Part shown: positions 4,051 through 29,351 of the stretch, piece after piece | Numbering within the stretch: position 1 is the stretch's first letter | Layout: each line of letters begins with the position of its first letter | Virus record (IMG/VR): IMGVR_UViG_3300032323_002966 | Location: 1-29,403 of that record | Direction: 5' to 3' (one strand) | Source of the DNA: a virus | DNA: 29,403 nucleotides | Translations under genes and position numbers: made by a program | Notes under the pieces: generated by a model | What the model was told of the DNA's origin: nothing | The model's input: only the letters and a program-made list of their open reading frames with translations | The model's database searches: none

Positions 4051-4070
4051 TGTTTTCCTTTCAATATAGT

Positions 4071-4403
4071 GATAGGTTATTCTGTTACGAGGAAACCTAT
4101 CGAAACCCTAGTCAGCGTTTAGGCTGCCAATGCGAACTTTTCATCGTTTGCGTTTACTTTGTTTTGCTTCTTCGGAAGGGAACAACCCACATCCTTAAGG
4201 CTTCTGCATTACCTAGTTGTCCACTTCTATACTTGTTGCCCTGTCGAAACCATGGCTGGCCCATCAAAAGCATTGTAGATGATTGATCCGTTACACTTCT
4301 GCTACAACAGATGGCGCCGTGATAGGACCTCATGCTTTTGGTGGACCAGGTGGGAGTCGAACCCACGTCCAGAACACTTTTCTAGTTGCTTCATACAACC
4401 ATA
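4071..4403 (-). ncRNA. ssrA: Circularly permuted (two-piece) tmRNA
   Basis: tmRNA rescues stalled ribosomes and tags their products for proteolysis. In minus-strand order the gene has: (1) the acceptor piece, about 4403-4339, with GTGGG-TTCGACT-CCCAC T-arm (4366-4350), 3' acceptor strand CTGGTCC (4349-4343) and ACCA (4342-4339); (2) a spacer 4338-4263, whose ends (with adjoining bases) carry an AAAAGCAT/ATGCTTTT pairing; (3) the coding piece from 4262, starting GGGCCAG, which pairs with CTGGTCC as a 7-bp stem, then a tmRNA-type GGTTTCGACAGGG segment, a pseudoknot-like region and the tag frame (4151-4119). A final 8-bp stem GATAGGTT/AACCTATC (4101-4094 with 4078-4071 on the plus map) probably marks the 3' end. 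Because the CCA half precedes the tag half, the mature RNA must be two chains. Exact outer ends are inferred. Confidence 0.93.
4119..4151 (-). other. tmRNA tag-peptide reading frame (ANDEKFALAA, stop)
   Basis: Eleven codons from GCA to TAA encode ANDEKFALAA. The resume alanine codon GCA, the AND start and the ALAA end match proteobacterial degradation tags (E. coli ANDENYALAA). The ALAA end is what ClpXP and related proteases recognise. The EKF variant is closest, from memory, to betaproteobacterial tags of the ANDERFALAA type. Confidence 0.95.
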
Positions 4404-4409
4404 AACACT

Positions 4410-4438
4410 ATTATAGTGGTAATTTATTTAGTTGTCAA
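4410..4438 (-). promoter_or_regulatory. Perfect sigma70 promoter of the tmRNA gene
   Basis: Minus-strand TTGACA (4438-4433), exactly 17 nt, TATAAT (4415-4410). The -35 overlaps the TGA stop of the upstream nuclease gene. Predicted start near 4403, only about 40 nt before the T-arm, which fits a short acceptor-piece 5' part. Confidence 0.92.
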
Positions 4439-5088
4439 GAGTTTTTTCGGTAATAATCAATTGCTTTCACCAAACCAACGATATGATCCGAGGTCTTCTG
4501 CTTGAAAAGAATTGGTTCACCATCTTGCACAGCCATGATGATGACAAGTTCATCAATCGGTTTACCGACCAATTCCTCATACATTAATGCATATGCGGTG
4601 GTCTGCCAAAAGTAATCTTCAATGTCTTCTAGATTCTTAACTTTCTTAGAAGTTTTAAAGTCAATCACCGACAGTTCACCATCAAATTCACCGATACAGT
4701 CAACACGGCCTGCCAATCCCAATTGTTCAGACCACAATGCAACCTCTTGATAGTGAATGTTGTTGATACGATTCAATAGAGGCTTAAGTGATTTAAACAT
4801 TTCGAGTGCATCAGGCATCATTTCACCCAATGCCTCATTGTTCAAATACTTTTCGCAAAGCGTATGAACATTAGTGCCCCTTGAAGTTGCCTGTTTAGAA
4901 ATCTTATTTGCAGTTTCTTCACCAACCCTACGGCGCCAGGCCATGATGGCCTCTTTCTTCTGTGCGCCGACTACAGTGGTGACTGAAGGCAGTTTTGATC
5001 CACTTGGTGTGACATAATATCTTTTACCATCTGGAAATGTTTCCGACTTCAGATCAGGCAACTTCATTGGTGGGCAATAATTAAACAT
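4435..5088 (-). CDS. RecB/Cas4-like PD-(D/E)XK exonuclease
   Basis: 217 residues. The nuclease core is visible: an upstream helix with RGTNVHTLCEKYL (~70-82), the VDCIGEFDGELSVIDFKTSKK region (~132-152; note D and the D-F-K motif with catalytic Asp and Lys), and a downstream QTTAYALMYEEL helix carrying the Q-x3-Y signature of RecB-type nucleases. These enzymes resect DNA in repair and recombination. The N-terminus (PSVTTVVGAQKKEAIMAWRR) is typical of phage members. ATG 5088 lies 15 bases after the PhoH stop. Its stop codon overlaps the tmRNA -35 element. Confidence 0.85.
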   Translation of the reverse strand: MFNYCPPMKLPDLKSETFPDGKRYYVTPSGSKLPSVTTVVGAQKKEAIMAWRRRVGEETANKISKQATSRGTNVHTLCEKYLNNEALGEMMPDALEMFKSLKPLLNRINNIHYQEVALWSEQLGLAGRVDCIGEFDGELSVIDFKTSKKVKNLEDIEDYFWQTTAYALMYEELVGKPIDELVIIMAVQDGEPILFKQKTSDHIVGLVKAIDYYRKNS

Positions 5089-21619: not shown

Positions 21620-22462
21620 TTAACCGCAGATGGTGTACTCTGCAAGATTGCGCCAGTTGGCACCTGCACTCTTGCGAATTTTTGTTACCTGAATGAGCGT
21701 GCGAAGCGACAGCTCTTTGACAGTATCTTTGAGAGAATCGATAAGGTTCATAGCATCGACCTTGTGTGCCATGTCAAACTCAGGCATAAACTCACCAGAA
21801 TCCAACAGGTGGCGCATACGCTCGACCTTCTGATCATTGGTCATAGTCAGATCAACCGCCATAGAACGGGTGATAATCGCCTGATCGATTTGCGTGGATG
21901 ACAGGTTAGAGATAAACACCACGCGACCTTTGAATTCAAAGGACGTAGGCAGCTCTTCATCACGCATATCAGCACGCCAAGAGATAATGCGGCGCGAATA
22001 AGAATCAAGAGCACCTTTAAGAAGGTTAAGAGAGGTAGGGTCTTTGAGAACCGAATCACAATCATCAAACACAATCACACCATCGCGGTTCTCATAAAGG
22101 GTACGGTACAGACCTTTAGGCGTAGAGTAACCTTTGATAACACGGAAAGACTTTTTGGTGTTGACAGTAGAACCAACGGCCAATTCATCAACCAGAGAAA
22201 CATCAGTCATGCCAATGTCTGCCAATGCCTTGGTGACGGTGAAGGACTTACCAAGACCGCCAGGACCAGTGACAACAACGGACGCCTGGTCACCACGTGC
22301 AAGCATTGTCACCATGTCAGAAACGAAACCAAAGCGCTCATTGATAGAGAACCGGGACTCTACAGGTGCGGCAACAGGTGCGCTGGTGGTGGTAGGAACA
22401 CCGCCAGAAGCGATACGATTCTTGGTCATACGAAAACCTGCTTTGGGTACGCCACGTGGCAT
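21620..22462 (-). CDS. AAA+ type ATPase
   Basis: 280 residues. Walker A GPGGLGKS (~67-74), Walker B VIVFDDCD (~126-133), a sensor-1-like VVFISNLS and an arginine-containing IITRSMAVDLTM segment. Starts MPRGVPKAGFRM with a short basic, Ala/Pro-rich N-terminus. Similar phage proteins are annotated simply as ATPases. Own promoter at 22498-22525 and AAGGAG ribosome site. Codons here are GC-richer than in the neighbours. With the CobS/MoxR-like ATPase it makes a second AAA+ enzyme in this window. Confidence 0.85.
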   Translation of the reverse strand: MPRGVPKAGFRMTKNRIASGGVPTTTSAPVAAPVESRFSINERFGFVSDMVTMLARGDQASVVVTGPGGLGKSFTVTKALADIGMTDVSLVDELAVGSTVNTKKSFRVIKGYSTPKGLYRTLYENRDGVIVFDDCDSVLKDPTSLNLLKGALDSYSRRIISWRADMRDEELPTSFEFKGRVVFISNLSSTQIDQAIITRSMAVDLTMTNDQKVERMRHLLDSGEFMPEFDMAHKVDAMNLIDSLKDTVKELSLRTLIQVTKIRKSAGANWRNLAEYTICG

Positions 22463-22497: not shown

Positions 22498-22525
22498 ATT
22501 ATACCAGAACCAGACGGAAAGGCAA
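22498..22525 (-). promoter_or_regulatory. Promoter of the second AAA+ ATPase gene
   Basis: Minus-strand TTGCCT (22525-22520), 16 nt, TATAAT (22503-22498), preceded by the TTGACCGG element 25 nt upstream. Confidence 0.8.
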
Positions 22526-22534
22526 CCTACTACT

Positions 22535-22566
22535 AAAGTACTCCATCCGTCCGGTCAACTATTATC
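22535..22566 (-). repeat. 32-bp dispersed repeat with TTGACCGG core (copy 1)
   Basis: This segment matches 25800-25831 at 30 of 32 positions. It covers the stop codon of the 22562-22783 gene and ends upstream of a -35 box. The core CCGGTCAA is at 22551-22558. Confidence 0.85.
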
Positions 22567-22783
22567 GGTGGTAGTGTACCGGACGCTCATACCGACCATC
22601 CTCTGCACGGTAGATGGAGACAAACCGACCATGCCTGGAACCGTCCTGGTAGGTGTAGGAGTAGGTCTGACCGTATCCGATGGGTGGGAATGTCATCTCC
22701 CAAGAGTCCAAAAGACCCTCCGCATCAAGGGCGGCATTGAGGGTTGGAAAGTAATTGGGGAGAGAGGTACGGTGCGTTTTCAT
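22562..22783 (-). CDS. Small hypothetical protein, probably leaderless
   Basis: 73 residues, rich in Tyr, Arg and His, with GYGQTYSYTYQDGSRHGRF. The ATG is 8 bases past the last base of a TATAAT element, with no ribosome site, so the mRNA should start at or one base before the start codon. It ends in the 32-bp repeat, as does the region after the 25845-26060 gene, whose PTQGYG segment is distantly similar. Confidence 0.68.
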   Translation of the reverse strand: MKTHRTSLPNYFPTLNAALDAEGLLDSWEMTFPPIGYGQTYSYTYQDGSRHGRFVSIYRAEDGRYERPVHYHR

Positions 22784-22790
22784 GTTTTGG

Positions 22791-22818
22791 ATTATACTAA
22801 AACCAAGACAAGAGGCAA
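22791..22818 (-). promoter_or_regulatory. Promoter giving a leaderless transcript
   Basis: Minus-strand TTGCCT (22818-22813), 16 nt, TATAAT (22796-22791). Predicted start at 22784 or 22783, the latter being the A of the ATG. A weak hairpin (AAAAGT/ACTTTT) just upstream may end the previous unit. Confidence 0.78.
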
Positions 22819-22851
22819 TATCAGTAAAAAGTCTTACTTTTATTTGTAGTG

Positions 22852-22974
22852 TTATTGTAAGAAGAAAGTATTAACGATGCCGTATATAAAAACAATAACA
22901 GCAAGAGAGAAAGCGGTATATTGTATTGTTTTAAATGCAATAAACACAATCAAATTGGCAAAGTTATTTTTCAT
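22852..22974 (-). CDS. Very small membrane protein (40 aa)
   Basis: Translated by hand. Hydrophobic segment at residues ~20-36. ATG 22974 overlaps the stop of the upstream gene as ATGA. Third in a run of tiny membrane proteins. Not recognised. Confidence 0.55.
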   Translation of the reverse strand: MKNNFANLIVFIAFKTIQYTAFSLAVIVFIYGIVNTFFLQ

Positions 22975-23102
22975 TTACATGAACCAATAAGGGAAAATAA
23001 ACTAATAATGCCTGATTGGATTAATGCAACTGTACAGACAACAAACAATGTAATCAATACAAAGAATAAGATGTTATCTAAGATGGTGGGTTTATCATTC
23101 AT
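22971..23102 (-). CDS. Very small membrane protein (43 aa)
   Basis: Translated by hand. One hydrophobic segment (~10-38) after a polar start MNDKPTILDN. No clear ribosome site; a second ATG is at 23098. Coupled to the next gene by ATGA overlap. Not recognised. Confidence 0.55.
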   Translation of the reverse strand: MNDKPTILDNILFFVLITLFVVCTVALIQSGIISLFSLIGSCK

Positions 23103-23163
23103 AATATATTCTCAAAGGGGCTACACCGCGATTCTATATGATTTGTTTTGTCTTGGCAAGCCC

Positions 23164-23307
23164 TTAAATTATGGCATCAAGAAAGAATGCCATATTTGCA
23201 GCAGAAAATACCAAATTCATCCAACCAGATCCATTGAGGCCATTTTCAAATGCCCGTTTAGATACGACTGCACACAATACAGAAACGAATAGGTTTAAGA
23301 TTAACAT
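23164..23307 (-). CDS. Very small membrane protein (47 aa)
   Basis: Translated by hand. Hydrophobic ends (MLILNLFVSVLCAVV and NLVFSAANMAFFLDAII) around an RAFENGLNGSGWM loop. Starts one base after the preceding stop (TAAAATG). Not recognised. Confidence 0.6.
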   Translation of the reverse strand: MLILNLFVSVLCAVVSKRAFENGLNGSGWMNLVFSAANMAFFLDAII

Positions 23308-23308
23308 T

Positions 23309-23593
23309 TTATCTCCAAGTGCGGTGACGTTCGGCTACCCACTCTGAGCCATCATATTCCTCAATATACCAATTCACATCATCTGGAATTTCCACAATTT
23401 TCAATGCAGAAAAAGTGCCGTCTGCCTTGTCACCCAATTCTTCTACAATTTGAATAAGAACGGGATCATTACGGGGAATATCTTTATACCACCAATCTGG
23501 ATCGGTGATACCTTTGCGTTCTTTGTATAGTGTTTCAGCCTCATCAGACAAATCAAATCCACCAAAATCTTTGTTAATTACAACTTTTATCAT
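23309..23593 (-). CDS. Conserved phage protein starting MIKVVINKDFGGF
   Basis: 94 residues. The N-terminal VVINKDFGGFDLSDEA, central DPVLIQIVEELG, and C-terminal LKIVEIPDDVNWYIEEYDG are a pattern I recognise from many phages, always without assigned function. ATGA overlap with the exonuclease gene. Confidence 0.82.
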   Translation of the reverse strand: MIKVVINKDFGGFDLSDEAETLYKERKGITDPDWWYKDIPRNDPVLIQIVEELGDKADGTFSALKIVEIPDDVNWYIEEYDGSEWVAERHRTWR

Positions 23594-24024
23594 AGTCTCT
23601 TTTCTCGCCTCATATAAAAATCACGTATAGCCCTTGCATCATGCAATGCATTGTGTGGCACCAGTGAATCATAATCAATACCAAAGTCCAATTCAAATTT
23701 GATATTGTTCACGAATTTCATCATCATGCCAGGACCAGTAATCAGTGATTCACAGAAATGCCGAATGTCATCTGGCCAATCGGCAATGATGGTACATTCA
23801 CCAATTTTCCAAAGATAGTTACCGAGTGCATTCTGAAACTCGGAGAAACTACACGGTGGTAGAAACAAATGTGGTACAACATTATCACGCACCCAAGGAT
23901 GCAACTGGTCTTTAATTTCAAGTTCTTTATAAAACTCAGGTGCCGATGTATCTTCAGGCACAAGAGCCATAGAGATTAGTTTGCCTTGAAAGCCATTAAA
24001 CTCAGTATCAAGAAAAAGACGCAT
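23590..24024 (-). CDS. DEDD-type 3'-5' exonuclease (Rv2179c-like)
   Basis: 144 residues. Motif I DTEF (Asp, Glu at residues 6 and 8), motif II ADWPDDIRHF (~81-90) and motif III HNALHDARAI (~124-133, His and Asp) give the DEDDh catalytic set. This compact form fits the Rv2179c-like 3'-5' exoribonuclease family. Probably degrades or trims RNA. Overlaps by one base the next gene's stop/start junction. Confidence 0.85.
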   Translation of the reverse strand: MRLFLDTEFNGFQGKLISMALVPEDTSAPEFYKELEIKDQLHPWVRDNVVPHLFLPPCSFSEFQNALGNYLWKIGECTIIADWPDDIRHFCESLITGPGMMMKFVNNIKFELDFGIDYDSLVPHNALHDARAIRDFYMRREKRL

Positions 24025-24212
24025 TATGAAATCTCACTTTTTGCCCTTTGGCGTTCAACAAAGGTGTCCATCCATTCCACTAGAATGTCTCTAGCTTCAT
24101 ATCGACTCAGACCAAATGCATCTTGCAAATATGGTCCAGCACCAAACATATTGATAGCACCAGTTTCACGGATGTTATCCAAGTAAACAAAATATTCTTC
24201 TTTATTCATCAT
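24024..24212 (-). CDS. Small conserved phage protein
   Basis: 62 residues, MMNKEEYFVYLDNIRETGAINMFG, with the YLQDAFGLSRYEARDIL helix; such short proteins are common in large phages and often carry an AINMFGA motif. GGAG ribosome site; stop of the previous gene overlaps its ATG (ATGA). Confidence 0.8.
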   Translation of the reverse strand: MMNKEEYFVYLDNIRETGAINMFGAGPYLQDAFGLSRYEARDILVEWMDTFVERQRAKSEIS

Positions 24213-24457
24213 TCAACTCCAAAATGTTTCTTTAAATCATCAATACAACGGCGGACTTCCATATCTTCACGATTTAAATCACCCATGAATCGTTTTTGGA
24301 GCACTCCAATCGCTTCGGTGACCATCAGGTCAGCAAACCTCTGCAATTCATCATCATAACGTGCCGACCAATCGATAATGTCACCGGGACTCCATGTTTC
24401 ATCGGCCCACAGCATGAAACCAGCCTGTTCGGCAATTTGTTTTGTCTTATCTTTCAT
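24209..24457 (-). CDS. HFGV-family paralogue 1
   Basis: 82 residues from ATG 24457 (GTG 24460 also possible). Shares with the next two genes the plan K/ER-x-x-x-LAEQA...FADLMVTEA...KKHFGVE. Member of a tandem family of three. Function unknown. Confidence 0.78.
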   Translation of the reverse strand: MKDKTKQIAEQAGFMLWADETWSPGDIIDWSARYDDELQRFADLMVTEAIGVLQKRFMGDLNREDMEVRRCIDDLKKHFGVE

Positions 24458-24687
24458 CACTTAACTCCAAAATGCACACGAATCAAAGATGCTGCAAGGT
24501 CTTCATCAAAAGGAAAAGGTTCGTTTTTCCATTTAAGTAAAACATCACAGCAATCCTGAATAATCAAATTGGCAAATCTTTCAACATCAGAACCAAGCAA
24601 TACATTTGCCGTTTTATATTCATCTTGAGATACCAATGCCTCTTTTGGTTTAGATGCACGGTACAATTCAACCAATCGTTCGTTCAT
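24457..24687 (-). CDS. HFGV-family paralogue 2
   Basis: 76 residues, MNERLVELYRASKPK, then VERFANLIIQDCCDVLL and a C-terminal IRVHFGVK. Overlaps the next gene as TAATG. The least similar N-terminal half of the trio. Confidence 0.78.
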   Translation of the reverse strand: MNERLVELYRASKPKEALVSQDEYKTANVLLGSDVERFANLIIQDCCDVLLKWKNEPFPFDEDLAASLIRVHFGVK

Positions 24688-24923
24688 TACTTAACTCCAA
24701 AATGTTTAGAAATCACTACTGCTGCGGTGTCAGCACCATAAATCATATCATCAGTAATGCCACGGAGATTTGATACTTTGTGTGCCTGTTCAATACATTC
24801 CCGAACAATTGAATCCACAAACTTTTCGAAATCTTCCATTTCACCAAAGACAACGGCATATTCCAACCGTTCACCAAAACTGGCATTGGCCTGTTCAGCA
24901 AGTTCCCGAATTCGTTCGTTCAT
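24687..24923 (-). CDS. HFGV-family paralogue 3
   Basis: 78 residues, MNERIRELAEQANASFG, then EKFVDSIVRECIEQAH and C-terminal VISKHFGVK. The fullest copy of the family motif. Such tandem copies are frequent in T4-like phages; role unknown. Confidence 0.8.
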   Translation of the reverse strand: MNERIRELAEQANASFGERLEYAVVFGEMEDFEKFVDSIVRECIEQAHKVSNLRGITDDMIYGADTAAVVISKHFGVK

Positions 24924-24928
24924 ATTCT

Positions 24929-25219
24929 TTATTTCAGAAAATCTTTTGCAAACTCTTTATCAAACCAGCGATACGCTTTTTTGACTTTTTCAATACCAAC
25001 TTTTTTAACACCATGGGAATTTTGTGGTGAAGTACAACCGGTACGGAATTGTAATGCCCAATTCAAATTGGTAATACCAGCTTTACGCATTAGAAAAAGG
25101 GTTTCTAGTGCCTCTTTAGCGGCTTCTCTAGATTGTTCATCTTCAAAATTCATAGTGAGATTAAGTTTATATAACTTAACTTCTTCTTTATTCAATTTAA
25201 CATTCATTTTATACACCAT
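24929..25219 (-). CDS. Hypothetical protein
   Basis: 96 residues. MVYKMNVKLNKEEV start overlaps the preceding stop as TAATG; a second ATG is at 25207. Contains an EDEQSREAAKEALETL helix and a basic C-terminus. Not recognised. Confidence 0.7.
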   Translation of the reverse strand: MVYKMNVKLNKEEVKLYKLNLTMNFEDEQSREAAKEALETLFLMRKAGITNLNWALQFRTGCTSPQNSHGVKKVGIEKVKKAYRWFDKEFAKDFLK

Positions 25220-25725
25220 TATTTGGTAATTACAACACCGACAACATCATATTTTTTCTTAAGAAACTTAAGGCACGCTTCAACAGTAGGGCGTGCTGCC
25301 TCTTGTTTGCCATTCATCATAGCAACCCACTTTTGGCGGTCTTCACGGAAGAAAACGGTACCATCAGGATGCACTGCGGCAGACCGAACACGCGGTGCCT
25401 TGACCTTAGGCGCAACAGGTGCATTGGTTGCAACTGGCGCAGGATTACGCATCCGTGCCATCTTACGCGCTGCAGGTTTACGCTTTGCAGGCTTTTCCAC
25501 GATCTCTTCCGCTTTCTTATTGTAGTTGGGACCAGTCAAAGGACCAACCCAAGGGAAGAAACCAACAGCTGTCTTATCTTTGTTGGCATCAGCCTCTGCC
25601 ATATCAAAACCACACATACCCCAGGAATCGGTATCTGCATTGTAATAGCGGTATGCTTTGCCTTGCATTTCACGATTCACAAGATACATGCCAGAGCGGG
25701 TAGGTTTTTCGGTGTTAAATTCCAT
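25219..25725 (-). CDS. Hypothetical protein with basic linker and DNA-binding-like end
   Basis: 168 residues: N-terminal ~75-residue domain (PTRSGMYLVNREMQGKAYRYYN), a Lys/Ala/Pro/Arg-rich linker (~76-120, KPAKRKPAARKMARMRNP), and a C-terminal segment (VHPDGTVFFREDRQKWVAMM ... CLKFLKKKY) with the three-strand-plus-helix look of an AP2/arm-type DNA-binding domain. DNA binding is inference. First gene behind a good promoter with a spacer inverted repeat. Confidence 0.72.
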   Translation of the reverse strand: MEFNTEKPTRSGMYLVNREMQGKAYRYYNADTDSWGMCGFDMAEADANKDKTAVGFFPWVGPLTGPNYNKKAEEIVEKPAKRKPAARKMARMRNPAPVATNAPVAPKVKAPRVRSAAVHPDGTVFFREDRQKWVAMMNGKQEAARPTVEACLKFLKKKYDVVGVVITK

Positions 25726-25762
25726 AATAATTAAGACTCCATGTCAATCAAAGAAAGATACC

Positions 25763-25791
25763 ATTGTAACGGTTTTCCGTAGGAATGTCAA
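25763..25791 (-). promoter_or_regulatory. Promoter with spacer inverted repeat
   Basis: Minus-strand TTGACA (25791-25786), 17 nt, TACAAT (25768-25763). ACGG/CCGT inverted repeat (25769-25772, 25777-25780) in the spacer. TTGACCGG element 24 nt upstream. Confidence 0.82.
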
Positions 25792-25799
25792 GTACAACA

Positions 25800-25831
25800 A
25801 AAGTACTCCATCTGTCCGGTCAAGTATTATC
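25800..25831 (-). repeat. 32-bp dispersed repeat with TTGACCGG core (copy 2)
   Basis: 30 of 32 bases identical to 22535-22566. Core CCGGTCAA at 25816-25823. Same position as copy 1: after a small early-type gene and directly upstream of a promoter in minus-strand reading. Confidence 0.85.
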
Positions 25832-25844
25832 TGTAAGTTAGTGG

Positions 25845-26060
25845 TCAATCACAACTGGTAAACCGACTAAAATCAGCGTGCCAGAGCGCCCCGGTTGGGT
25901 CCTGGCGAATGTTGGTCATCATGGTACCGTACCCCTGGGTGGGGTAGGACCTCTCTACCGACTCAAAGGTTTCGATTAACTCTTCCTTTGTATCGGCTGT
26001 CCAATGTTCTTTAATCATAGAAAAAAGAGCCATTTTAATAGGTGTACGAATAACTGCCAT
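25845..26060 (-). CDS. Small hypothetical protein
   Basis: 71 residues from ATG 26060 (MAVIRTPIKMALFSMIKEHW), one base after the preceding stop (TAATATG). An upstream in-frame ATG would overlap a real gene. Contains an ELIETFESVER helix and a YPTQGYG segment shared in style with the 22562-22783 product. Confidence 0.7.
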   Translation of the reverse strand: MAVIRTPIKMALFSMIKEHWTADTKEELIETFESVERSYPTQGYGTMMTNIRQDPTGALWHADFSRFTSCD

Positions 26061-26061
26061 A

Positions 26062-26241
26062 TTATAGATTAGCAAACTTCTCCGCACTGGTCGGTTCATA
26101 ATTACGATCAGTCATAAGAGTATATTGTTTAGTTTCAATTACATCACCACAGTTAATCTGAGCCATTTGGTGCAGCCCATAATTAGTAAACTTGGCGCCA
26201 GAAAGAATATCCAGCATCATAATCCAATTCAAATCTTTCAT
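26062..26241 (-). CDS. Small hypothetical protein (59 aa)
   Basis: Translated by hand. MKDLNWIMMLDILSGAKFTN start; ATG 26241 overlaps the upstream stop as ATGA and the stop is one base before the next start. Not recognised. Confidence 0.7.
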   Translation of the reverse strand: MKDLNWIMMLDILSGAKFTNYGLHQMAQINCGDVIETKQYTLMTDRNYEPTSAEKFANL

Positions 26242-26420
26242 ACTTGTTCCTTAAACGTTTTAAACTCTTGCACCAAAAACGATGCATCACTAGGGTGGCA
26301 ATATTCAATACCTTGTACTGCCCAGACATACTGAGAATGATATTTAAAGCAGTAATCTACAAACTGATTAATATCTAGTTTATGATCTTCTGCAATATAG
26401 ACCAAATGTGATTTTTGCAT
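26238..26420 (-). CDS. Small hypothetical protein
   Basis: 60 residues, MQKSHLVYIAEDHKLD, Tyr- and His-rich middle with YCFKYHSQYVWAVQG. Two bases after the preceding stop. Not recognised. Confidence 0.7.
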   Translation of the reverse strand: MQKSHLVYIAEDHKLDINQFVDYCFKYHSQYVWAVQGIEYCHPSDASFLVQEFKTFKEQV

Positions 26421-26422
26421 AA

Positions 26423-26644
26423 TCAGTCCAAAAGCACCATATATTCTTCGGGAAAGTATTTACGGAACCAATTCAGACCTTTTTGCATACGTTTATAATC
26501 ACCGAGCATCTCTGCACCGATAATCGAATCATAGACTGCAATAGCGTCAGGTTCAAGGGTACACGATTCACCAGAGAATCGGTTAGTGACCACTTGGGGT
26601 TCAGAATCCAAAATCAGACATTCAAAGGGCAATTTGCGGTTCAT
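26423..26644 (-). CDS. Conserved phage protein ending FRKYFPEEYMVLLD
   Basis: 73 residues from ATG 26644 with a GGAG ribosome site. The segment LEPDAIAVYDSIIGAEMLGD plus the C-terminal GLNWFRKYFPEEYMVLLD is common in small proteins of many phages. Function unknown. Confidence 0.82.
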   Translation of the reverse strand: MNRKLPFECLILDSEPQVVTNRFSGESCTLEPDAIAVYDSIIGAEMLGDYKRMQKGLNWFRKYFPEEYMVLLD

Positions 26645-26655
26645 AATAACTCCAA

Positions 26656-26844
26656 TCATTCAAACAAATCACAATAAACGGCTTCACGCACCGCAGTATC
26701 GGTTGCCTCACCATATCCCTCAATTTCGGAGATGGTACTGAGCAAATCATATACTTCGCTCCATTTCAGACCCTTATATTGTGCAGCAATTACAATGCCA
26801 TGCACAATTGCATTGCCTTTGTCGGTAAACATACCATAATCCAT
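26656..26844 (-). CDS. Small hypothetical protein
   Basis: 62 residues, ATG with AAGGAG ribosome site. Helical; no known motif. Part of the continuous early-type series. Confidence 0.7.
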   Translation of the reverse strand: MDYGMFTDKGNAIVHGIVIAAQYKGLKWSEVYDLLSTISEIEGYGEATDTAVREAVYCDLFE

Positions 26845-26853
26845 AATATCTCC

Positions 26854-27168
26854 TTACACCTTCAATTCTTTGGGTGCAAAACGAATCACACCCTCATATT
26901 CCAGTTGGTCCTTTTCGAATTGAGTGAGATAATCATCGGCGACAACCTCCCAATCGATAATGGCTTCACGGAAATAATGATTATCCGATTCTACCTGAGG
27001 GCGGAGTGCCATGACAGTTTCCGTCACATTACCAAAATCGGTAATATTACGAACCACATAATCATTACCACCCTTTGCCTTCCAATATTGGGGGCATTCA
27101 CCAAAACCATCCCAATCATGGGCACCATAGTTTTCGTGAACCTGGGTGGTAATTAACAATTTTGCCAT
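26854..27168 (-). CDS. Conserved phage protein starting MAKLLITTQVHENYG
   Basis: 104 residues. MAKLLITTQVHENYGAHDWDG and the PQYWKAKGGNDYVV segment are recognisable from phages and bacterial mobile elements; unknown function. GAGGTAAGAG ribosome site. Confidence 0.82.
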   Translation of the reverse strand: MAKLLITTQVHENYGAHDWDGFGECPQYWKAKGGNDYVVRNITDFGNVTETVMALRPQVESDNHYFREAIIDWEVVADDYLTQFEKDQLEYEGVIRFAPKELKV

Positions 27169-27177
27169 TCTCTTACC

Positions 27178-27384
27178 TCAAACAAAATCAACAGCGAAAC
27201 CATCACCAATAGTAGAGAAAATGATATTTTCCTTACCTAGACGTTTCACCAAGCGATTATAGATCCGCTTACCTGTTTCACCTGATACATTCTCCAAGAA
27301 CAATGTACCATTATAGAATTCAACATGAGTATCTGAATCCAACAAAGGATCAATCTCATTTAGAATACGTTTTTCGAAACCCAT
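27178..27384 (-). CDS. Small hypothetical protein
   Basis: 68 residues, alpha/beta, MGFEKRILNEIDPLL start, ribosome site TTGAGGTAA. Not recognised. Confidence 0.72.
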   Translation of the reverse strand: MGFEKRILNEIDPLLDSDTHVEFYNGTLFLENVSGETGKRIYNRLVKRLGKENIIFSTIGDGFAVDFV

Positions 27385-27392
27385 ACTTTACC

Positions 27393-27647
27393 TCAAATAT
27401 AAGAATCTTCAAGATGAGCAATTTGCTCTTTCAAATCTACCTGCTCATCCTCATCATCGGTACGCTCAAGATCATATTCCAAATCTTGAATCATATTATC
27501 GATATATTCATTGACAGTAATCCGATAAGCAGTAGGATCACATTTACGCAGAATATCAGAAGGATAGAATGTCAGATTACCAATAGTAACCTCACCTTGC
27601 TCATCCAGCAAATCGTCCACCATCTCAATAATATCAGAATGTCGCAT
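27393..27647 (-). CDS. Acidic hypothetical protein
   Basis: 84 residues with Asp/Glu-rich helices (DDEDEQVDLKEQIAHLED). Ribosome site GAGGTAA, own promoter at 27684-27712. First gene after the noncoding segment at 27.7-27.9 kb. Not recognised. Confidence 0.72.
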   Translation of the reverse strand: MRHSDIIEMVDDLLDEQGEVTIGNLTFYPSDILRKCDPTAYRITVNEYIDNMIQDLEYDLERTDDEDEQVDLKEQIAHLEDSYI

Positions 27648-27683
27648 AATGTTACCTCATCAAAGAATCAATCAATGACATGG

Positions 27684-27712
27684 ATCATACATGCCATTCC
27701 TAGGTTTGTCAA
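27684..27712 (-). promoter_or_regulatory. Promoter of the 27.2-27.6 kb gene series
   Basis: Minus-strand TTGACA (27712-27707), 17 nt, TATGAT (27689-27684). The -35 sits in the palindrome AGGTT-TGTC-AACCT, another variant of the palindromic -35. Confidence 0.78.
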
Positions 27713-27769
27713 CCTAATACAATAGTTCTCCAGTGTTTTAGTATGAGAACCATTGTATTAAATAGAGTT

Positions 27770-27813
27770 TACCTCAATGCTACCTCAGCGTTACCTCAAT
27801 GATACCTGATATG
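27770..27813. repeat. Four tandem 11-bp repeats (TACCTCA, helical phase)
   Basis: TACCTCA, TACCTCA, TACCTCA and TACCTGA begin at 27770, 27781, 27792 and 27803, exactly 11 bp apart. On the minus strand they read TGAGGTA, the same as nearby ribosome sites, but no genes follow them at the right distance. Phasing suggests a protein-binding array. Confidence 0.75.
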
Positions 27814-27842
27814 CATTATAGTACTATGCAATATAATGCATA
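27810..27842. repeat. Perfect 11-bp-stem palindrome
   Basis: TATGCATTATA (27810-27820) and TATAATGCATA (27832-27842) are exact inverted copies around an 11-nt spacer. AT-rich, no T-run, directly next to the 11-bp repeats. A pair of CGCGGAGT direct repeats (27847, 27859) follows. Confidence 0.8.
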
Positions 27843-27943
27843 CCTGCGCGGAGTATGTCGCGGAGTGGTAATAGGATTGGATACTTAGTTTCTGCATTGC
27901 ACCGAAATATATCCAAAACTTACCAAAATCACGCAGGAGACGC

Positions 27944-28117
27944 TCAAACCATCTCAATATCCCACTCGGTACCATAGTCCTGAAAGGCATTATCTCGCTC
28001 CCAAATCATAATAGCGCGATAATCCTGTGCTTCACTCAGAGACCAAAAGGTTTCTAAATGAGTATCTCCATAATATACATTATAGAATTCGCCATCATAT
28101 TCGATTTTATAGTCCAT
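27944..28117 (-). CDS. Small hypothetical protein
   Basis: 57 residues from ATG 28117 (MDYKIEYDGEFYNVYYG), one base after the upstream stop (TAATATG). Tyr/Glu-rich small beta fold; such proteins are common in phages. Not assigned. Confidence 0.75.
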   Translation of the reverse strand: MDYKIEYDGEFYNVYYGDTHLETFWSLSEAQDYRAIMIWERDNAFQDYGTEWDIEMV

Positions 28118-28118
28118 A

Positions 28119-28328
28119 TTATGCCTTTTGCAAATCATTAATGGTCCGCTGAAGCGTTTTGATAATATCAATTTGCTTATTAGCGGGTAAATCGGCCATT
28201 ACTTGCGCCAATTGAGATTCCAGATAACCAGCAGAATATGAATATGAACCATATTTGGAATATGATGCATCGGACATATTGCTGATAATACTCCGAATTT
28301 CCGCATACTGAAGTTTTACTGCTTTCAT
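28119..28328 (-). CDS. Small hypothetical protein
   Basis: 69 residues, SDASYSKYGSYSYSAGYLESQL in the middle, helical C-terminus. AAAGG ribosome site, own promoter. First minus-strand gene of the divergent region. Not recognised. Confidence 0.75.
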   Translation of the reverse strand: MKAVKLQYAEIRSIISNMSDASYSKYGSYSYSAGYLESQLAQVMADLPANKQIDIIKTLQRTINDLQKA

Positions 28329-28358
28329 GGTGTCGCCTTTCGTTGAATCAATAATGAG

Positions 28359-28386
28359 ATAATACAGGCATTGGTGGGTTTGTCAA
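28359..28386 (-). promoter_or_regulatory. Leftward promoter of the divergent region
   Basis: Minus-strand TTGACA (28386-28381), 16 nt, TATTAT (28364-28359), 31 bases before the ATG at 28328. Drives the minus-strand series. Confidence 0.78.
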
Positions 28387-28588
28387 GCGCTTTTTTTATA
28401 GTTGACCGGAGTGCTATGGCAAGCGTTTCGCCATTGGAAATTTCTATCGGGATTCTTGGATCGATAGTCGTGGATCAGTCACGCAGCCCCAGCGTCCACC
28501 CCAGTCGCTTTCGAATAGGTCCCATTATACAGGGGCTGGAGCATCCGTCAAGCATTCTTGACCGGTCCGCTGGATCATTCCTGGGTGG
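28387..28588. promoter_or_regulatory. Divergent noncoding control region with two TTGACCGG elements
   Basis: No convincing gene on either strand. Contains plus-strand TTGACCGG at 28402-28409 and 28558-28565. The second is 23 nt upstream of a -35 box, matching the 24 and 25 nt spacings at the two minus-strand copies. The rest has no clear function by eye. Confidence 0.6.
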
Positions 28589-28617
28589 TTGCCAATCCTT
28601 TCATCCTCCGCCACAAT
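28589..28617 (+). promoter_or_regulatory. Rightward promoter giving a leaderless transcript
   Basis: Plus-strand TTGCCA (28589-28594), 17 nt, CACAAT (28612-28617). The ATG at 28625 begins eight bases after the -10, so the transcript would start at or next to it. Confidence 0.68.
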
Positions 28618-28624
28618 CCATTCC

Positions 28625-28789
28625 ATGGTAAATCGATTCACTTTAATCCTCCCCACTGGCCGGGTTCTGGTGTTCTCCGTTTTGGCTTGTGCTAAGACAT
28701 TCCAGCAGGCTTATGGTGGTACGCTGGTAACCCAGCAAACCGGTCAAGTATCCGAAAAATGCTTGCCGAATCCTGTGGTTCTGTCATAA
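28625..28789 (+). CDS. Small hypothetical protein (54 aa), probably leaderless
   Basis: Translated by hand. MVNRFTLILPTGRVLVFSVL start, then AKTFQQAYGGTLV. GC-richer codons than the minus-strand genes. No ribosome site. Its stop lies in the -10 of the next promoter. Not recognised. Confidence 0.55.
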   Translation: MVNRFTLILPTGRVLVFSVLACAKTFQQAYGGTLVTQQTGQVSEKCLPNPVVLS

Positions 28790-28790
28790 T
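28740..28790 (+). promoter_or_regulatory. Repeated early-type promoter unit, copy A
   Basis: CCGGTCAAGTATCC (28740-28753), TTGCCG (28763-28768), 16 nt, CATAAT (28785-28790). About 65 bp closely resemble 29007-29057 and its flanks. Drives the 57-residue gene at 28821. Confidence 0.78.
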
Positions 28791-28820
28791 CCATTCCATC
28801 GGTTAAACAAAGGACGCAAA

Positions 28821-28994
28821 ATGCAATTCCAAGAGGCTATCAAGGTTATCGAGCGTATCAAAGCAGAGCTGGGGCTCCCTCTGCTGGAGACCATGGAATA
28901 CATCATGGACAATCCGCACGAATTCGGTTACCAAACCAAGCTGGCCCACCGCGTGGTGTTCAATGAAATGGCTAAGCTGTTCGCTCCCGCATAA
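28821..28994 (+). CDS. Small hypothetical protein (57 aa)
   Basis: Translated by hand. MQFQEAIKVIERIKAELGLP, all-helical, charged. AAAGGA ribosome site 7 bases upstream and a promoter of the repeated type. Codons strongly favour G/C endings (CTG, CGC, AAG), unlike the minus-strand genes. Not recognised. Confidence 0.75.
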   Translation: MQFQEAIKVIERIKAELGLPLLETMEYIMDNPHEFGYQTKLAHRVVFNEMAKLFAPA

Positions 28995-29006
28995 TAGTCT
29001 AGCATT

Positions 29007-29057
29007 CCGGTCAAGTATCCAACGGATGCTTGCCAAAACCTCCGATTCTGTCATAAT
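29007..29057 (+). promoter_or_regulatory. Repeated early-type promoter unit, copy B
   Basis: CCGGTCAAGTATCC (29007-29020), TTGCCA (29030-29035), 16 nt, CATAAT (29052-29057). Shares the TTCTGTCATAAT end and ATGCTTGCC with copy A. Confidence 0.8.
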
Positions 29058-29087: not shown

Positions 29088-29351
29088 ATGTCCAAGACAC
29101 TCTCCCCCTCCGTTGCAGCTCTCCGTAAGGCTCGCGCTGATGTTAAGGAAATTAAGGCTATGATCCAGCAGCTGGCTGCTCGGGTGAAAGCAGAGAAGCT
29201 GGAGGCTGCTGAAGCCAAGCGCAGCGCTGCTATCGCTAAGGCAGAGGCTCGCCTCCAGAAGCTGCTGTCCAAGCAGGTTGGCAAGGTTGGTGCCAAAGCC
29301 GCCAAAGCCAACCGCAAGGCTGGTGCCGTTACCGTTACCAAGGGTGTATAA
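29088..29351 (+). CDS. Lys/Ala-rich histone-like basic protein
   Basis: 87 residues, AAGGAAG ribosome site. Helical region rich in Ala, Lys and Glu (~10-60), then a basic Gly/Ala/Lys tail (KVGAKAAKANRKAGAVTV). The composition is like H1-type bacterial histones and nucleoid proteins, but no defined fold is recognised. An early-expressed DNA- or RNA-binding role is inference. GC-rich, CTG/GCT/AAG-biased codons suggest high expression or foreign origin. Confidence 0.75.
   Translation: MSKTLSPSVAALRKARADVKEIKAMIQQLAARVKAEKLEAAEAKRSAAIAKAEARLQKLLSKQVGKVGAKAAKANRKAGAVTVTKGV

Follow-up and report, generated by a model that had tools for sequence, protein, structure and literature searches.

A palindromic element at two fixed distances from strong sigma70-type promoters in a group of T4-like phages

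INTRODUCTION

What does a short word repeated beside promoters at one end of a phage genome fragment bind, and to what effect? The question is raised by a 29.4-kb virus record from IMG/VR (IMGVR_UViG_3300032323_002966), analyzed here over its full length of 29,403 nucleotides and hereafter called the window, in which the 8-mer TTGACCGG, in some copies read as CCGGTCAA, recurs next to promoters. We observe that TTGACCGG is one half, the more strongly conserved, of an imperfect 27-bp dyad, AATACTTGACC-N5-GGTCAAGTATT (type I), which is placed at one of two distances from the −35 hexamer of strong sigma70-type promoters across a group of T4-like phages. Judging from sequence, we lean toward reading the dyad as the operator of a sequence-specific, probably dimeric protein that would serve the strong host-sigma70 promoters of this group by contacting RNA polymerase and boosting them.

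RESULTS AND DISCUSSION

A promoter-associated word confined to the right end of the window

An exact-word scan of the whole window recovers six copies, at 22551, 25816, 28402, 28558, 28740, and 29007, all within the right 7 kb and none in the left 22 kb, which reproduces the positions given by a first-pass annotation of this DNA. A second-order Markov model predicts 0.85 copies in the window, and the probability of finding six or more is approximately 2.5e-4. TTGACCGG is also the sole 8-mer with at least six copies after position 22500 and none before it, and none of 40 simulated windows contained an 8-mer with at least six copies limited to the right end. Matches with one mismatch, in contrast, are at chance level (16 observed versus 15.5 expected), and the signal therefore comes from the exact core together with the sequence around it. 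Each of the six copies is situated upstream of a sigma70-type promoter. The first-pass annotation had noticed the adjacency to promoters for the six copies but overlooked promoters on the opposite side of those at 28402, 28740, 29007, and 28558 (minus strand in the last case). A previously described 32-bp repeat, identical at 30 of 32 positions, is found inside a longer repeat of 42 nt at 22528 and 25793 that is 88% identical.

The word is not directional but part of a palindrome. In the window, the other half of the dyad is degenerate (e.g., AGTACTCCATC), and in relatives both halves are sometimes near perfect (e.g., TTGACCAATCCGGTCAA and TTGACCTGTCCGGTCAAGTAT). Measured from the dyad centre to the start of the −35 hexamer, the six sites lie, in order, at 25, 24, 24, 15, 24, and 24 nt, and the fourth, centred at 28566, also serves a second promoter, weaker and divergent, 23 nt away. 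Since these centre-based distances line up whichever way TTGACCGG points, the two orientations amount to one geometry. The distances of 25, 24, and 23 nt reported earlier are correct as gaps between TTGACCGG and the −35 hexamers at 22525 (minus), 25791 (minus), and 28589 (plus). Five of the six operators are located wholly upstream of the −35 hexamer with a gap of about 10 nt; in the nearer spacing class, the 27-bp site extends almost up to it. Five of the six promoters end 30 to 37 nt before an ATG (at 22462, 25725, 28328, 28821, and 29088). No ATG lies within 80 nt of the sixth (28524, minus), which could serve the gene at 28328 as a tandem promoter.

The putative operators recur mostly in one divergent region of related T4-like phages

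Using the AAA ATPase gene of the window (phrog_1250; 21620 to 22462, minus) as a query, we obtained 80 IMG/VR loci of T4-like phages, which carry T4-type genes such as members of the regA, gp59, and gp33 families; the closest capsid among named phages is that of Methylophilales phages (66%). The relatives are metagenomic contigs, often fragments, with simple open reading frame (ORF) calls as gene calls, and "early" is used here in a sense inferred from promoter type and gene content. A position weight matrix (PWM) trained on the more distant related loci recovers all six window sites, with scores of 22.7 to 32. On contigs of 156 and 172 kb, it finds five sites each scoring above 15, in a single stretch of the contig (9.1 to 13.3 kb and 42.1 to 45.0 kb, respectively), where simulated sequence yields 0.2 to 0.6 expected sites. 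Six long contigs contain six to eight type I operators per genome, most of them inside 5 to 8 kb. The operators are concentrated in one divergent region per genome, with single outliers in G016 and G017. A strong sigma70-type promoter is present on at least one side of 81 of 85 distinct sites, compared with 10% at random positions, and 13 of the 85 are flanked by a promoter on each side. The long runs of structural genes in G002 and G005 contain almost no promoters of this kind.

Across distinct sites and promoters of the relatives, the dominant centre-to-−35 distances are 15 to 17 or 22 to 26 nt. Two further analyses depend less on promoter selection. First, among exact CCGGTCAA copies in 14 mostly near-genome-length contigs, the promoter-linked copies all lie at 15 to 17 or 22 to 26 nt, and copies without a promoter are isolated and scattered. 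Second, an IMG/VR-wide scan for CCGGTCAAGTAT-N{2,12}-TTGCCA, which allows 11 gap values, returned 33 stretches. Those in loci with group-like genes show gaps of solely 3 or 11 to 12, and two sites in a divergent relative of 177 kb (L307/G023) have a gap of 10 and promoters. Stretches from unrelated phages (L278, L280, L283, L287, L289, L290, L294, L295, L297, L304, and L305) display mixed gaps and no type I promoter architecture; we rejected them as operators, and they probably match by chance within coding sequence. The motif search over whole contigs and relatives that the first-pass annotation had proposed therefore finds promoter-linked matches concentrated in one region, the remaining exact matches being isolated background.

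The promoters show a further regularity. The 16-nt spacer between the −35 and −10 hexamers of strong promoters in related loci is conserved, approximately as TTTCCNCCGGTTCTGG, often with a small dyad such as AATCC..GGATT, which suggests an additional determinant within these promoters.

The window also encodes a permuted two-piece transfer-messenger RNA (tmRNA) of betaproteobacterial type (4061 to 4452, minus; Rfam beta_tmRNA, 109 bits; tag ANDEKFALAA), and 11 of the 12 related records examined for it have a beta-type permuted tmRNA. Phage Melnitz has already been reported to contain a two-piece tmRNA (PMC9004378), so that of the window is of a known kind. Given the beta-type tmRNA and the nearest capsid in a Methylophilales phage, the hosts are probably betaproteobacterial.

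Arrangement of putative operators and promoters in the window

Operator 1 (22537 to 22563, minus; PWM score, 31.5; centre, 22550) is a 27-bp palindrome with its TTGACCGG half promoter-distal. It precedes the promoter TTGCCT-16-TATAAT, with an extended −10 TG (22498 to 22525, minus), 35 nt before the ATG of the AAA ATPase gene. Operator 2 (25802 to 25828, minus; centre, 25815) shares the 42-nt repeat with operator 1 and precedes TTGACA-17-TACAAT (25763 to 25791, minus), 37 nt before the ATG of a gene encoding a 168-amino-acid (aa) protein (25219 to 25725, minus). Small genes beside these two operators (22562 to 22783 and 25845 to 26099, both minus) resemble each other by eye, and gene and operator may have been duplicated as one unit.

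The other four sites lie close together. Operator 3 (28397 to 28423, minus; PWM score, 22.7; centre, 28410) precedes TTGACA-16-TATTAT (28359 to 28386, minus), 30 nt before the ATG of ORF 28119-28328. Operator 4 (28553 to 28579, assigned to neither strand; PWM score, 28.0) sits between a strong minus-strand promoter of the near spacing class, TTGACG-16-TATAAT (28524 to 28551), and the weak divergent plus-strand promoter TTGCCA-17-CACAAT (28589 to 28617); both are retained in relative L003, where the −10 hexamer of the latter reads CATAAT. Operator 5 (28726 to 28752, plus; PWM score, 28.5; centre, 28739) and operator 6 (28993 to 29019, plus; PWM score, 30.2; centre, 29006) precede TTGCCG-16-CATAAT (28763 to 28790, plus) and TTGCCA-16-CATAAT (29030 to 29057, plus), each with a TG and each 30 nt before an ATG, of ORF 28821-28994 and ORF 29088-29351, respectively.

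A second palindrome occupies the same positions

A second promoter-linked dyad, TGTTGT-N6-ACAACA (type II), is found in the group, for example in L009, L013, L080, G004, G020, and G025. In a set of 393 strong promoters, made non-redundant beforehand by removing those that differed at no more than 8 of 60 positions, type I is present at 123 (4 after shuffling) and type II at approximately 84 (2 after shuffling). Both types peak at 15 to 16 and 24 to 25 nt from the −35 hexamer, type II at 15.5 and 24.5 nt. Unlike type I, type II is dispersed over the genome.

The two dyads also replace each other at orthologous promoters. At the AAA ATPase gene promoter, the window, G005, G011, G016, and G017 have type I, whereas G004 has type II; at that of the 168-aa gene, the window, G002, G011, and G017 have type I, whereas G020 and G021 have type II. 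Type I is not present in the related contigs G008, G014, and G021, where we find two, two, and five type II sites, respectively. Neither type was found at strong promoters in Melnitz or in the searched part of V45v66, and in the latter no strong promoter was found. A code of two operators for the early genes of the group is a tentative possibility that we rate below even chances: two dyads, read by two undescribed dimeric regulators, would share both positions upstream of near-consensus sigma70 promoters, orthologous promoters could exchange one for the other, and one of the two would act mainly in a single divergent take-over region.

In addition, some promoters, on the plus strand of L003 and in L012 and L251, lack the TTGACC half and have just TGGAGTACTTT/GAGAACT half-sites, lying some 20 nt upstream of the −35 hexamer or inverted about 28 bp apart. 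They are possibly a variant half-site or the site of another factor.

A putative activator compared with known systems

That the element is the site of an early activator or repressor had been proposed by the first-pass annotation. An early-regulator site is strongly supported by the strong sigma70-type promoters, the fixed distances, the concentration mostly in one region, and the many relatives; between the two roles, we consider activation or boosting more likely on present sequence evidence, because the sites spare the −35 and −10 hexamers and their positions are restricted. Use in either orientation, service to divergent promoters, and two fixed positions suit a dimeric regulator that touches RNA polymerase. 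In the mechanism we propose, the dimer would bind the 27-bp dyad upstream of strong promoters for host sigma70, mostly within a single divergent and probably early region, and from a position near −59 or −50 would touch the C-terminal domain of the RNA polymerase alpha subunit (alpha-CTD) or sigma region 4 in the style of a class I activator. Such contact could boost these promoters and let them outcompete those of the host.

CRP at class I promoters binds a site centred at −61.5. The dyads resemble this arrangement in lying near −59, upstream of the −35 hexamer, and in being usable by divergent promoters; they differ in being centred at about −50 or −59 and in serving core promoters near consensus. 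Crp/Fnr boxes read TTGAT-N4-ATCAA or TGTGA-N6-TCACA and share a TTGA...TCAA dyad with type I, but TTGACC-N5-GGTCAA with its conserved outer AATAC/GTATT does not fit their spacing. In T4 middle promoters, the MotA box, centred at −30, replaces the −35 hexamer. A phage-specific element is likewise added here to a sigma70 −10, but the −35 (TTGMCA) is intact and the element is centred at about −50 or −59. In the literature searched, which covered few subscription journals, we found no description of the motif.

The promoters themselves are similar to those of the T4 early type, with a near-consensus −35 and a −10 that may be extended, both suited to host sigma70. T4 early promoters combine excellent −35, TGn, and −10 elements with UP elements and are partly helped by Alt (PMC2988021), and they share with those described here the T4-like phage background and extra conserved sequence around or upstream of the −35 hexamer. 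In the part of that source drawn on here, UP elements are described for T4 and a palindromic operator is not, in contrast to the two dyads at two fixed positions. G+C-rich (type I) or AT-centred (type II) dyads thus appear to stand where T4 has AT-rich UP elements.

Several observations weigh against an activator. With core promoters already this close to consensus, one is not obviously needed. The two position classes are 8 to 9 bp apart, and because this is less than a full helical turn they may use different contacts. Related phages share descent, and counts across them are not fully independent. Pfam comparison of 60 conserved proteins gave no helix-turn-helix family among the top 25 of 55 families, and ten proteins of the operator region gave no match above the cutoff. 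Every contig of the first round in which type I or type II is clear encodes the 168-aa protein, and many orthologues have one or the other at their own promoter; we nevertheless rejected this protein as the regulator, as it is absent from type-I-bearing G024 and G025 and has no convincing fold match.

Conserved across the group, the 168-aa protein has a basic linker and a C-terminal domain predicted to be beta-beta-beta-alpha, and one member has a weak AP2 match (E value, 0.48). A GP88-family protein (PF17338) was likewise discarded as the regulator, with no match in type-I-bearing G024, G025, and G026. A 73-aa protein of the operator region (G024_88841_89062; 88841 to 89062 in G024) occurs in most clear type I contigs and in none of three contigs without type I, the exceptions being G020 and G023, which has few sites; it is a candidate regulator worth testing.

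Alternative readings

Whether the factor is encoded by phage or host is a separate axis from activation or repression. We regard a phage factor as somewhat more likely, because in IMG/VR the architecture is seen solely in this T4-like group. A host transcription regulator borrowed by the phages is a possibility to be taken seriously, if the less favoured one: the hosts are probably betaproteobacterial, as the tmRNA and capsid indicate, and a change of host could cause the loss of type I from G008, G014, and G021. In cellular genomes, however, the perfect palindrome has 12 exact matches in 84,980 species genomes, none in a named betaproteobacterium, and 114 genomes of one class show no enrichment of a 19-bp core, negatives that are weak since real phage sites are imperfect.

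A repressor seems unlikely, yet several features suit it. Near-consensus promoters would fire unaided, the near-class site almost touches the −35 hexamer, and an operator lies at the 168-aa gene's own promoter, as for an autoregulator. Steric repressors usually overlap the −35, the −10, or +1, whereas five of the six window operators leave the −35 hexamer free, and two fixed positions without spread point to RNA polymerase contact. A phage-encoded repressor made early would then have to act through such contact or DNA bending and not by simple occlusion, shutting the promoters off after the first minutes or keeping them off in a superinfecting genome. For T4, the part of the source drawn on here describes a shut-off of early transcription whose route AsiA does not account for (PMC2988021).

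Less probable still is that RNA polymerase itself reads the element as an extended, UP-element-like promoter determinant through alpha-CTD, perhaps after Alt-like modification by an injected phage enzyme, with no separate regulator. The element overlaps the UP-element zone, the 16-nt spacer is conserved as well, and T4 early promoters have a consensus beyond the −35 and −10, some being Alt-responsive (PMC2988021, in the part drawn on here). The core, however, is a dyad rich in G+C and defined in sequence, unlike A-tract UP elements, and two unrelated palindromes at the same spots, usable in either orientation, suit a dimeric protein better.

Finally, chance, coding constraint, or the DNA-modification-sensitive switch offered by the first-pass annotation is very improbable: exact copies outside the early region do resemble background, but promoter spacing is fixed across the group and accounts for the conservation, 0.85 copies were expected in the window, and no sequence feature points to modification.

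Implications for early control in T4-like phages

To our knowledge, T4 early promoters are regarded as strong host promoters without a dedicated regulator, modification of RNA polymerase being the only addition. If the dyad is an operator, as we favour, its conservation at fixed positions would imply an extra layer of early control and a transcription factor new to description, for whose recovery the site would be a defined bait. The motif and its spacing rule offer a direct route to annotating early promoters in these uncultured phages.

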